Shown here one piece after another: positions 32,068 to 35,424 of a stretch of DNA of 64,000 nucleotides; position 1 is the stretch's first letter; the number at the start of each line of letters is the position of its first letter. The notes under the pieces are model-generated. The model searched no databases and was not told where the DNA came from. It worked only from the letters and a program-made list of their open reading frames with translations. The position numbers and the translations under genes were made by a program. Source of the DNA: Dacryopinax spathularia (lineage: Eukaryota > Basidiomycota > Dacrymycetes > Dacrymycetales > Dacrymycetaceae); the NCBI GenBank assembly GCA_037974965.1, contig JBBPFI010000003.1, forward strand, positions 1,302,001 through 1,366,000, in the 5' to 3' direction.

Positions 32068-32486
32068 GACGTGACGCTCGGAGGACGTTCGGTGTGACTG
32101 GACACAAGTTGGGTAGAGGCGGGGGGCGTTCGGTACGAGGTGGAGGAAGGACTGGTTATAGTCTGATAATGGGGAGGATATAGAGGAGAATAGGGGGTCG
32201 TTAGAAGTATTGAAAAGGTGGTTTTTAGGTTAACTTTGAGAAGGGCGACAGGCAATGAGACGTGAATTGAGTTGAGGAGATGAGGGACGGTGTGCGTGGG
32301 TTGTATGGCGCCCTATGAGCGTTGTGCACCGTATTGGATGACTTCCCGTCGTCCAAGATCCTAAATGTGCTTCCATCAACGGAAGGAGAATCCTAGATTT
32401 AGGATAGGACTGCTCACCGTCGCAGGTTTGTTGCCCAGAGCCATACCACCCAGATCAATCCTAAAACCCTGAACCGTACATTATAC

Positions 32487-33835
32487 ATGAACTCCATCAT
32501 TCTTGATCGCTGGCAGACAGTGCTGGAGGAAGATGTCCTTGCGCAAGAGGATGATGGATATGACAGTGACGAAGAGCAAGCCCGGAATGCTGCCTTCCTC
32601 CTTTTGGTACACCACCAAACCACAGCAGTTGTTGCAGAAGAACGGAGCTTGCGCAGGGTGTATTTGACACGACCAGACCTGCTACCCAACCCTCGTCACA
32701 GCACACCTTTTCAGCAGGTGTTGTACAGTGAGAATGATCGCGCATACATCACAACAATGGGACTGGATATCAAGACATTCCGATATCTACTTTGCGCAGG
32801 GTTTGAAGAGGCCTGGAATTCTACACCAATCATTCGCAATGACGTCGCATCTGGTGCTGAACCCAAAGCATATCGCCGGTCTCTTGATGCTGCAGGCGCC
32901 CTCGGCCTTATCCTGCACTGGATAAATTCAACAATGCTGGACAAAACCCTTGCGCAAGTCTTTGCCCTCGTCCCAGCAGTCATAACACGGTATCGAAGCT
33001 TTGCCCTTGCCCTGCTTCTCCAAACCCTGCGCAAGGTGCCAGAGGGTCGAATATGTTGGCCAGCCACGGAGGACGAGTTTGAAGCCCTATCAGACCTTGT
33101 TTGTGCACGGCATCCACGCTTAAAGGGTGCTTTCGGGTCTGTGGATGGGTTGAATCTCCCAACAGCAACATCGAGCGATGAGCGCTTGCAAAATGCACAA
33201 TACAATGGGTGGCTTCATGGGCATTACACCAGTAGTGTGATTGTGTTTGCGGCTTCAGGTGAGTCTCAACCTTGCGCAAAGTCTTCTGTGACTGACCTTG
33301 CGCAGGAGAAATCATCCATGCTGTGATCAACGCACCCGGTAGCTGGCATGATGCACTGGTAGCTCGAAGTATTTATCGCAAGCTAGAGACCAAGACCCCT
33401 GAAGGCTTTTTCCTCGCAGCCGATACTGCATTCCCACATACCCTGGCCTCCATTGCATCCAAAATACATACACCTGTGAAGACCGGCAGCTATACAACAC
33501 GTGAAGAGCTTCAGGTCATTGAACAGCTTGTCTCTTTCCGACAGTCCGCAGAATGGGGTATGCGAGCAATACAGGGCTCCTTTGGACGTTTGCGACTGCC
33601 GCTCGATGCCAACAATGCGCAAGGTCGATCTGAGCTCCTTGAAACCGCTTTTCGACTGCATCAAATCCGAGTGCGCTTGGTTGGTATCAACCAGCTGAAA
33701 AGTGTATATGAGCCAATCTGGACAGAAGCAAAGGAACTCAAACAAACATGGACCGGGATGCATAAGATGCTGTTTCCAGACTTGCACAAGGCAGAACGTG
33801 TTGCACAATTTCATTATGTCGAAGTACAGGACTAG
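32487..33835 (+). CDS. Harbinger (HARBI1-like) DDE transposase
   Basis: Two exons (32487-33258 and 33306-33835) join in phase 1 to 433 residues. The nuclease triad is visible: Asp220 in FGSVDGLNL, Asp297 in FFLAADTAFPH and Glu340 in RQSAEWGMRAIQGSFGRLR, with the family signature PGSWHD between. This matches the DDE_4 nuclease of PIF/Harbinger and HARBI1. The N-terminal 100 residues are acidic. The 47-base intron contains one TGCGCA motif and its acceptor is formed within a second one (CCTTGCGCAGG). The gene ends GAC TAG in a palindrome shared with the convergent partner gene. No damage was seen in the frame. Confidence 0.9.
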
Positions 33836-33845
33836 GCGCCTAGTC
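33830..33845. other. Palindrome carrying both transposon stop codons
   Basis: GACTAGGCGCCTAGTC is a perfect 16-bp palindrome. Read on either strand it gives the last codon and stop (GAC TAG) of one of the two convergent Harbinger genes. It lies close to the middle of the element. Confidence 0.92.
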
Positions 33846-35015
33846 TCTATCTGGCATAGGAGGGAAATTCATACCTTGCGCAAGGAATGCGCCAACATTG
33901 CCCATGCCCATCATCATAACACGCATCTGGTCCTGCATCTCCAAGCGCGCTTGCGCTACATCAAGCTGCCGCTGTACAGCAACTTGCGCTCGGGCATCCT
34001 CAACCAGTTTCATGCGCAGGTCCTCAATGATCTTCTCTTTTTCCATCATCATGGCGACATGCTCAAGCTGCTTATCACGTAGCTGGGCTTGGAGCGATGA
34101 GATCTGCGCCTCATAGAGATGTCGCTGGACTCGAGCCTCATCACGTCGTGCTTGAGTCTCTGGATTGAAAGCCTGGCTGACATTTGCAAGGAGCGTGTTT
34201 GTTGAGTCCTGCCGTGAATCGCCCTTCTTGACATGGCGCCGCTGTTTGACAAGTATTGGCTCGCTGGGTGTCGCAGCTGCTGTTGGGACATCACCCTGCG
34301 CAAGGTCTTCCTGGGCAAGTTGACTCTGCGCAAAGTTTTCTTCATCGGAAGGTGGCCACACGATGCCATCGCTATCTTCATCTTGTAAGTCGACCATGTG
34401 AACATCGTTCTGGATATCGCGGTTCACATCCTTTGCCCGTGCAACAATGGCATGCATATGCGGGTTACCGGTGGGCTTAGGCATTCGGACTAGCTGGTAG
34501 TAGGTAAGCAAAGACCTTGCGCAAGGTCTAAGTGTGCGCACCATATTGAACTTGCGCTTGATGCTCTCCTCAGTTCGATCGGCCATCTTTGCACTTGCCC
34601 AGAACTCTCTCATCCCCTGCGCAACCTTCTCCCATCCACTTGATCCAATTGGCTTATGCCGCTCAACCTCCTCGACCAACCTCAACAACTCTGCATCACC
34701 ATACCCCTGCGCACCGCTCGCACGTCCCTTTGCTTTCTTCAGTGGTGGTTCATCTTGCGCAAGGTTCTTTGCTGGTTGCCGCTTTTTGGGTTGGACAGAA
34801 GTTGGCGCAATTTGTGGGGTAGATGGAGGGACGGGTGCACTCATCGCTTCTGCCATGGTTGGCAAGAAGTCTTCATCCTGCTGAGAGGAATGCGCTGAAA
34901 GCGGGCTGTAGCTATAAGGGCTTCTTCCCTCCCAGCCTTGCGCACGGAGTGTGGCAGGATGTGGTATGATATGCGGTAGATACATCGGTGAGCTGCTGTT
35001 ATCGAGGTTGTCCAT
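33840..35015 (-). CDS. Harbinger Myb/SANT-like DNA-binding partner protein
   Basis: Frame of up to 391 residues. A 51-base segment (about 34493-34543) has a good GTGCGC donor and a CTACCAG acceptor, so the spliced form is probably about 374 residues. The N-terminus is disordered and Pro/Ser-rich. A trihelix/SANT-like region follows: GYGDAELLRLVEEVERHKPI, GWEKVAQGMREFWASAKMAD and EESIKRKFN. The C-terminal part is a long coiled coil (RRDEARVQRHLYEAQISSLQ ... RMKLVEDARAQVAVQRQLDV) ending PPMPDRD. In Harbinger systems the Myb-like protein brings the transposase into the nucleus and to the DNA ends. The stop lies 4 bp from the transposase stop. Confidence 0.84.
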   Translation of the reverse strand: MDNLDNSSSPMYLPHIIPHPATLRAQGWEGRSPYSYSPLSAHSSQQDEDFLPTMAEAMSAPVPPSTPQIAPTSVQPKKRQPAKNLAQDEPPLKKAKGRASGAQGYGDAELLRLVEEVERHKPIGSSGWEKVAQGMREFWASAKMADRTEESIKRKFNMVRTLRPCARSLLTYYQLVRMPKPTGNPHMHAIVARAKDVNRDIQNDVHMVDLQDEDSDGIVWPPSDEENFAQSQLAQEDLAQGDVPTAAATPSEPILVKQRRHVKKGDSRQDSTNTLLANVSQAFNPETQARRDEARVQRHLYEAQISSLQAQLRDKQLEHVAMMMEKEKIIEDLRMKLVEDARAQVAVQRQLDVAQARLEMQDQMRVMMMGMGNVGAFLAQGMNFPPMPDRD

Positions 35016-35121
35016 GGTGTAAGAGCGACCTTGCGCAGGGTGACCTCTTCGAAAGCAGACATGAGATGAGATGCCGGACCGGCATGGTGCCTCCGCCTGG
35101 GTTTAGGACTCGGATTTGAGT

Positions 35122-35149
35122 TAGGAGAGGGGGGGGTACCCCTCTCCTA
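35122..35149. other. G-rich hairpin in the transposon right end
   Basis: TAGGAGAGGGG and CCCCTCTCCTA form an 11-bp inverted repeat separated by six bases. A third direct copy, TAGGAGAGGG, lies at about 35161-35170. It is located between the Myb-like gene start and the right terminus, so it could be a subterminal binding site or part of the promoter. Confidence 0.7.
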
Positions 35150-35424
35150 GACAGCAGTTTTAGGAGAGGGCCGGAGTTTGAATTTTTTCGGCAGCACCTC
35201 GGCATTGCTGTCTTGGCACATTTAGGTCTACCTAAACCGTGCCTAGATGGCGACGGGAAGTCATCCATTGACGCACTCACTCGGAGCCAAATACGAACGC
35301 ATCGGTTCCAACCCGCGTTTGGTCCCACCCGCACCGCTCAGTCCCGCATTCCGCCTCCTCCCTCACCCCCCGCCGTCGCCTTCAACACCACTCCAACGGT
35401 CGACGACGAACAACACATCATCCG

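Follow-up and report, generated by a model that had tools for sequence, protein, structure and literature searches.

TGCGCA words across the body of a fungal Harbinger transposon: constraint on the DNA itself and a candidate family-specific binding array

Transposons such as En/Spm and Ac/Ds carry clusters of subterminal transposase sites near their ends, and sequence-specific anti-silencing by transposons is known, to our knowledge, from one plant system, VANDAL/VANC. The present analysis concerns a 64,000-nucleotide stretch of the genome of Dacryopinax spathularia (contig JBBPFI010000003.1, positions 1,302,001 to 1,366,000, forward strand; the whole stretch is called the window), in which a two-gene Harbinger element of 2,931 bp (32336-35266) carries the word TGCGCA 19 times. 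The element resembled En/Spm and Ac/Ds in having repeated short words, here putatively protein-binding, and differed from them in that its array avoided the ends. A similar-looking code was found inside coding sequence, coexisting with the protein code, in Harbinger, Helitron and Mutator-like elements (MULEs) of this fungal genome.

The closest system described is the VANDAL/VANC anti-silencing of Arabidopsis MULEs (PMC5735166, PMC10398659). VANC words are dense and specific to one family, related families differ, and a change of word goes along with change in a fast-evolving protein of the element (PMC5735166). The words found here were likewise dense and family-specific, with different words in related families, and as with VANC the target would be set by the density of words and not by individual copies. 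Unlike in VANDAL/VANC, a single genome had arrays in elements of three kinds (Harbinger, Helitron and MULE), and whereas VANC words are mainly non-coding, in one orientation and in tandem, the present words were coding, palindromic or in both orientations, and mostly not in tandem: 16 of the 19 window sites were coding, the ACCAG word of other Harbinger loci occurred in both orientations, and locus L050 alone had short tandem runs. No DUF1985-type VANC domain was found in the subset of element frames searched with Pfam (10, 10 and 9), and the elements were not filed as members of VANDAL/VANC because VANC proteins were not found. As in Harbinger3_DR (PMC9710019, accessible part), a DDE transposase and a candidate Myb-like protein were combined in a two-gene element with a subterminal motif, here TCCTA[AG]; unlike that motif, TGCGCA lay in the body and not at the ends, and the body word changed while the terminal motif did not. 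Fungal Nuwa-type Harbinger lineages (PMC12730594) also have a transposase, a Myb/SANT protein and a 3-bp target duplication, and differ in that the accessible part of that paper mentions no dispersed array for them. Literature searches within open-licence papers returned none whose title or displayed abstract reported family-specific words scattered through the coding regions of transposons in fungi.

The first-pass annotation of the window had placed TGCGCA at 19 positions of the element, and motif counts returned the same 19 coordinates (all unstranded):

32540..32545, array site 1, CTTGCGCAAG
32650..32655, array site 2
32793..32798, array site 3
32951..32956, array site 4, CTTGCGCAAG
33028..33033, array site 5
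33273..33278, array site 6, in the intron
33299..33304, array site 7, in the intron
33616..33621, array site 8
33877..33882, array site 9, CTTGCGCAAG
34013..34018, array site 10
34297..34302, array site 11
34327..34332, array site 12
34518..34523, array site 13, CTTGCGCAAG
34535..34540, array site 14
34618..34623, array site 15
34708..34713, array site 16
34756..34761, array site 17, CTTGCGCAAG
34939..34944, array site 18
35032..35037, array site 19, just upstream of the ATG of the second gene

The density of TGCGCA was 6.5 per kb in the element vs. 0.25 per kb outside it (15 sites in the other ~61 kb of the window). Extension to CTTGCGCAAG, previously attributed to most copies, was found in only 5 of the 19; elsewhere in the window, where it had been noted as rare, it did not occur. 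The looser consensus of the aligned sites was ~ACCyTGCGCArGGT, often with one half intact. Eighteen sites lay between the two gene starts, and the claim that all of them did so failed for the site at 35032, 17 bp upstream of the ATG at 35015. The outer 200 bp were free of TGCGCA as stated before (first site 204 bp from one end, last site 235 bp from the other), and likewise in the copies on contigs C10 and C16; the end gap on its own was marginally beyond chance (P ~0.047 for 19 uniform sites). The array covered two genes on opposite strands, with the 16 coding sites spread over all three frames (10, 4 and 2; the favoured frame reads -AQ- or -AH-) and the 3 non-coding sites located in the intron (two) and upstream of the second gene (one). 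Mean gaps in the TGCGCA arrays of the window element and of two Helitrons (A and B) were 138-185 bp, and spacing was more even than random, with a coefficient of variation (CV) of gaps of 0.65 in the window element (5% point of random 0.66), 0.57 in Helitron A (1% point 0.74) and 0.68 in Helitron B (1% point 0.79, simulated with slightly more sites than present). Genome-wide (29.2 Mb, 24 contigs), CTTGCGCAAG occurred 175 times vs. 67 for the pattern read backwards. Close pairs of TGCGCA showed no genome-wide enrichment (212, against 260 with the pattern reversed), so arrays are limited to a minority of elements.

The TGCGCA array is not a codon effect, because none of 1000 synonymous-codon shuffles reached the observed count: the window genes had 16 TGCGCA vs. 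a shuffle mean of 2.3 and a maximum of 9. Shuffles preserved the protein and codon use and were run 1000 times per element. Observed counts were also reached in 0 of 1000 shuffles in Helitron A (26 vs. a mean of 3.7), Helitron B (36 vs. 4.8), L049 (21 vs. 3.5), L046 (28 vs. 13.0), L048 (8 vs. 1.9) and L053 (16 vs. 6.0). Host open reading frames of at least 250 amino acids in the window were at expectation for both TGCGCA (4 vs. 3.9) and ACCAG (33 vs. 35.6). The copy on C16 (L044, C16:254900-258600), 97% identical to the window element and with stops in both genes, had 17 TGCGCA, and the copy on C10 (L045), 81% identical and with one stop in the second gene, had 19. Between the window element and L045, 16 of the 19 TGCGCA were kept vs. 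28% of all hexamers (p = 5e-7), and fourfold-degenerate sites were unchanged at 20 of 23 positions in the motifs vs. 162 of 329 outside them (p = 3e-4); motif positions were thus conserved in the 81% copy while surrounding synonymous sites varied, which indicates selection on the DNA itself. The function at the DNA level proposed for the element body in the first-pass annotation was upheld by the codon shuffles, the synonymous conservation, the presence of sites in all frames and in the intron, their retention in two copies and the host controls.

A lack of the motifs in related copies had been named as a ground for rejection, and here the result was split: the copies at 97% and 81% identity kept TGCGCA, whereas a sister element at 59% DNA identity (L046, on C2) was without the TGCGCA array but had an ACCAG array. 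L046 had only 2 TGCGCA, whereas its 3.9-kb locus carried 34 ACCAG with both strands counted (9.1 expected) and its body word read ACCAG[CT]. Its transposase and second protein were 62-67% and 38-44% identical to those of the window element. The window element had the subterminal motif TCCTA[AG] only in its outer 435 bp (8 copies, with 0 in the body); outer vs. body counts in the related elements were 5 vs. 0 for L046, 8 vs. 0 for the copy on C16 and 4 vs. 2 for the one on C10. Body words had the opposite distribution, with outer and body counts of 0 and 19 for TGCGCA in the window element and of 1 and 31 for ACCAG in L046. As TCCTA[AG] was outer and the body word inside in both sisters, terminal and body sites are distinct sets, of which the body one alone was switched. 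Six of the 19 TGCGCA were within 5 bp of an ACCAG of L046 (1.9 expected, p = 0.012); positional inheritance of the array between the window element and L046 was rejected as weak, being not significant at 3 or 12 bp. Identical residues of the second protein between both elements were 31 of 56 in the Myb/SANT-like region, 31 of 104 in the N-terminus, 29 of 82 in the linker and 68 of 117 in the putative coiled coil. Sister elements with different words make the co-evolution of word and reader directly testable.

Arrays were present in 9 of the 11 Harbinger loci examined (the window element and, chosen by protein family, L044-L046, L048-L053 and L066), with no clear array in L051 and L052. The word was GACCAGT in L048 (21 ACCAGT vs. 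1.6 expected), ACCAGT in L053 (17 vs. 1.5 expected), AACTGGCGCCAGTT in L049 (5 full palindromes plus half sites) and CATGATCATG in L050 (six clusters, partly short tandem runs). The ACCAG array of L066, 72% identical to L048, was dense (15 vs. 3.9 expected), and most of its sites had moved in a local view; 0 of 16 and 0 of 8 hexamers were kept in position between L048 and L066, whose alignment was poor. Sites in genes of the non-palindromic arrays of L046, L048 and L053 were 34 sense and 32 antisense, and this lack of strand bias speaks for a double-stranded DNA target.

The sequence retrieved for comparison came to ~1% of the bases of the genome. The word CTTGCGCAAG served to locate Helitrons A and B and the MULE copies, which are therefore biased towards arrays; together with A and B, 30 loci of 45 matches, chosen by protein family, made up the 32 Helitrons compared. 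Helitron A (C2:2197.7-2209.2k) had 63 TGCGCA in 11.5 kb and none in the 8.5 kb around it, and Helitron B had 71 in the first 10 kb of the sequence retrieved for it. Among the Helitrons, A, B and L026 had a clear array and L027 a weak one, and all four fell into one clade (FastTree topology). Despite differing flanks, A and B (53% identity) had 5 exactly homologous sites vs. 0.17 expected; B and L026 had 4, and A and L026 none. A MULE family (L010 and L011, 97% identical) also had a TGCGCA array. The half-site next to TGCGCA differed between families: 15 of 38 read ACC in the window element, 63 of 126 read TC in Helitron A, 86 of 160 read AGC in Helitron B and 28 of 44 read AGG in MULE L011, with no preference in 30 host half-sites.

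The window element is classed as a PIF/Harbinger DNA transposon from its DDE_Tnp_4 domain, its 16-bp terminal inverted repeats and its 3-bp target duplication, and has the following features:

32333..32335, unstranded, left target-site duplication ATT, read from the sequence
32336..32351, plus strand, left terminal inverted repeat GGATGACTTCCCGTCG
32336..32539, unstranded, left outer zone without TGCGCA and with subterminal TCCTA[AG] motifs, from motif counts
32487..33258, plus strand, exon 1 of the transposase gene, exon ends inferred from the frame
33259..33305, plus strand, 47-nt intron with two motifs, the second overlapping the 3' splice site, inferred from GT..AG and the frame
33306..33835, plus strand, exon 2 of the transposase gene, DDE_Tnp_4 (PF13359, E 5.5e-8)
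33840..35015, minus strand, second gene, with a DUF6818 match (PF20681, E 7.5e-7) and, in a structure model, a three-helix Myb/SANT-like region and a long C-terminal helix
35038..35266, unstranded, right outer zone without TGCGCA and with subterminal TCCTA[AG] motifs, from motif counts
35251..35266, minus strand, right terminal inverted repeat
35267..35269, unstranded, right target-site duplication ATT, read from the sequence

The PF13359 match was above the Pfam cut-off, and the transposase gene had four more matching stretches elsewhere in the genome. The usual target duplication of Harbingers is TWA; here four copies had 3-bp duplications on both sides (ATT in the window, ACT on C16, AAT on C10 and ACT in the sister on C2), with A-N-T as the pattern across them. 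The second protein was divergent in sequence, and its model had a mean predicted local distance difference test score of 56.6; the three-helix Myb/SANT-like region belonged to this low-confidence model, and a helix of 97 residues (285-381) was confident. This long C-terminal helix is predicted to hold a coiled coil and would be fit for dimers. The second protein had no significant sequence match in the PDB, and its low-confidence model had no fold match at E ≤ 0.001.

The constraint, the palindromes, the absence of strand bias and the flanks particular to each family are most simply explained by a sequence-specific protein that binds double-stranded DNA and reads a family word. Computed directly were the array, its constraint at the DNA level, its family-specific sequence, the word swap in the sister and its separation from the terminal motif; we infer that a protein binds the array and, with less certainty, that the effect is anti-silencing. 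The reading that the TGCGCA sites form a body-wide binding array for a sequence-specific double-stranded DNA-binding protein, which would mark the family and most likely serve anti-silencing, stands in even balance. As the full site is palindromic, the putative binder is probably dimeric. Anti-silencing is put forward as the most likely use because the genome has DNA-methylase matches and because copy C16 decayed at CpG: of its polarised changes 23 of 41 were CpG transitions, vs. 0 of 11 in the window copy (p = 0.001), which suggests CpG methylation of dead copies. Evasion of silencing by the array is plausible; it would resemble VANDAL/VANC, with the words set in coding sequence and spread over three superfamilies. 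Each family's word would then be an address, and a cognate protein would bind the array every ~140-185 bp over the transcribed body; the bound protein would keep CpG methylation and heterochromatin off the element, or would recruit an activator, and host genes without a dense array would not be opened. If the reader exists, the array would be a compact, family-specific "do not silence" mark over kilobases, and would help to explain how DNA transposons coexist with genome defence. Candidate readers in the Harbinger are the element's own fast-evolving second protein and a family of host factors with a TGCGCA core, the latter a serious rival. The wider proposal is tentative: several superfamilies in one genome would write a family address in coding sequence, evenly over the body and apart from the transposition sites, a cognate protein would shield them from silencing, and new families would arise by a joint change of word and reader. 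Several results weigh against a cognate protein that shields the array-bearing elements. No clear array was present in 28 of the 32 Helitrons, 6 of the 8 MULE loci and 5 of 5 retroelement (RVT_1) loci, nor in L052 and L051, the latter a relative of L049 and L053; an array is therefore not needed for the success of an element, and L051 in particular disfavours an essential role. ACCAG-type arrays were not evenly spaced (CV 0.87 to 1.26), no protein common to all array-bearing elements was found, and the Myb/SANT-like region was among the better conserved parts of the second protein between the window element and the word-switched L046 (31 of 56). A shield acting in trans should have covered C16 too, which decayed at CpG; the pattern in C16 is that of CpG decay in a dead copy and not of protection of a live one, and the window copy may be younger.

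Recruitment by the arrays of one host DNA-binding protein, or of a small paralogous set, as an enhancer or chromatin opener would need no element-encoded binder. This is possible, though on the doubtful side: the TGCGCA core recurs in the Harbinger, the Helitron clade and the MULE family, half-sites of the CCAGT type turn up in four distinct lineages of Harbinger and no common element-encoded protein tracks the arrays, whereas the strongly family-specific flanks are not expected of a single host factor and the word of L050 is unrelated. TGCGCA may also be a set of sites through which the Harbinger Myb-like protein acts in transposition (synapsis, nuclear import), extended inward; this is improbable, even if the Myb-like protein of Harbinger3_DR binds a 9-bp subterminal motif (PMC9710019, accessible part) and the window protein, as modelled, combines a Myb/SANT-like region with a long C-terminal helix that would suit dimerisation. 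The outer ~200 bp are without TGCGCA and have the separate TCCTA[AG], common to the word-switched sister, and TCCTA appears the more likely site of the Myb-like protein. Binding of TGCGCA by that protein, as put forward in the first-pass annotation, is unproven, with some evidence against it: it is disfavoured because the same core occurs in Helitrons and the MULE, and no Myb-like gene was identified in the examined frames of these TGCGCA-bearing elements, which are incompletely annotated. An action of the sites in RNA, through splicing, stability or evasion of small RNA, would agree with the two intron sites, one of them at the 3' splice site, and with the transcription of most sites; it has a very small probability, as genes on opposite strands both carry sites, palindromes dominate, one site is outside the coding frames and the sites of non-palindromic arrays favour neither strand (34 sense vs. 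32 antisense), and the RNA-level function first suggested was not upheld. A mutational or codon artefact (codon bias, an LAQ/PAQ peptide repeat or a spreading short insertion) is scarcely credible. The frame that reads -AQ- or -AH- holds 10 of the 16 coding sites, as a peptide repeat might; against this stand the synonymous-codon shuffles, the sites in other frames, in the intron and in non-coding sequence, the synonymous conservation, and the finding that no more than the background share of motif sites (1 of 25 and 3 of 36) coincided with alignment gaps.

Further candidates were rejected. An RPA-like protein was considered as common reader, since a gene like the C-terminal part of RPA70 was found in Helitrons A and B and in the MULE; it does not track arrays, because it was also found near Helitrons without them. 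Carriage of TET/JBP genes by elements rested on four weak matches below the cut-off, none at array loci. The score of a putative hAT array at L065 (9.4) was uninformative because an inverted duplication doubles every count, and high scores at gen_L008 and L029 were discounted on visual inspection as apparent simple coding repeats.

Some observations stand apart from the arrays. Locus L065 (C9:429000-433800) contained an inverted pair of hAT stretches that were 99.8% identical over 1,282 bp. RPA genes are expected in Helitrons and not in MULEs; the MULE family (L011:6951-8270, L010 and C2:1459007, three copies in the genome) had an intron-split RPA70-like gene related to that of Helitrons A and B. 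Other MULEs (L062, L063 and L064) had in common a repeated word around CGGATGCC, in which an 8-mer was present in 4-5 copies, short of the threshold applied for arrays. Contigs C19, C23 and C24 had RVT_1 matches with in-frame TGA only, which appear to resemble mitochondrial intron reverse transcriptases, TGA being read as Trp.

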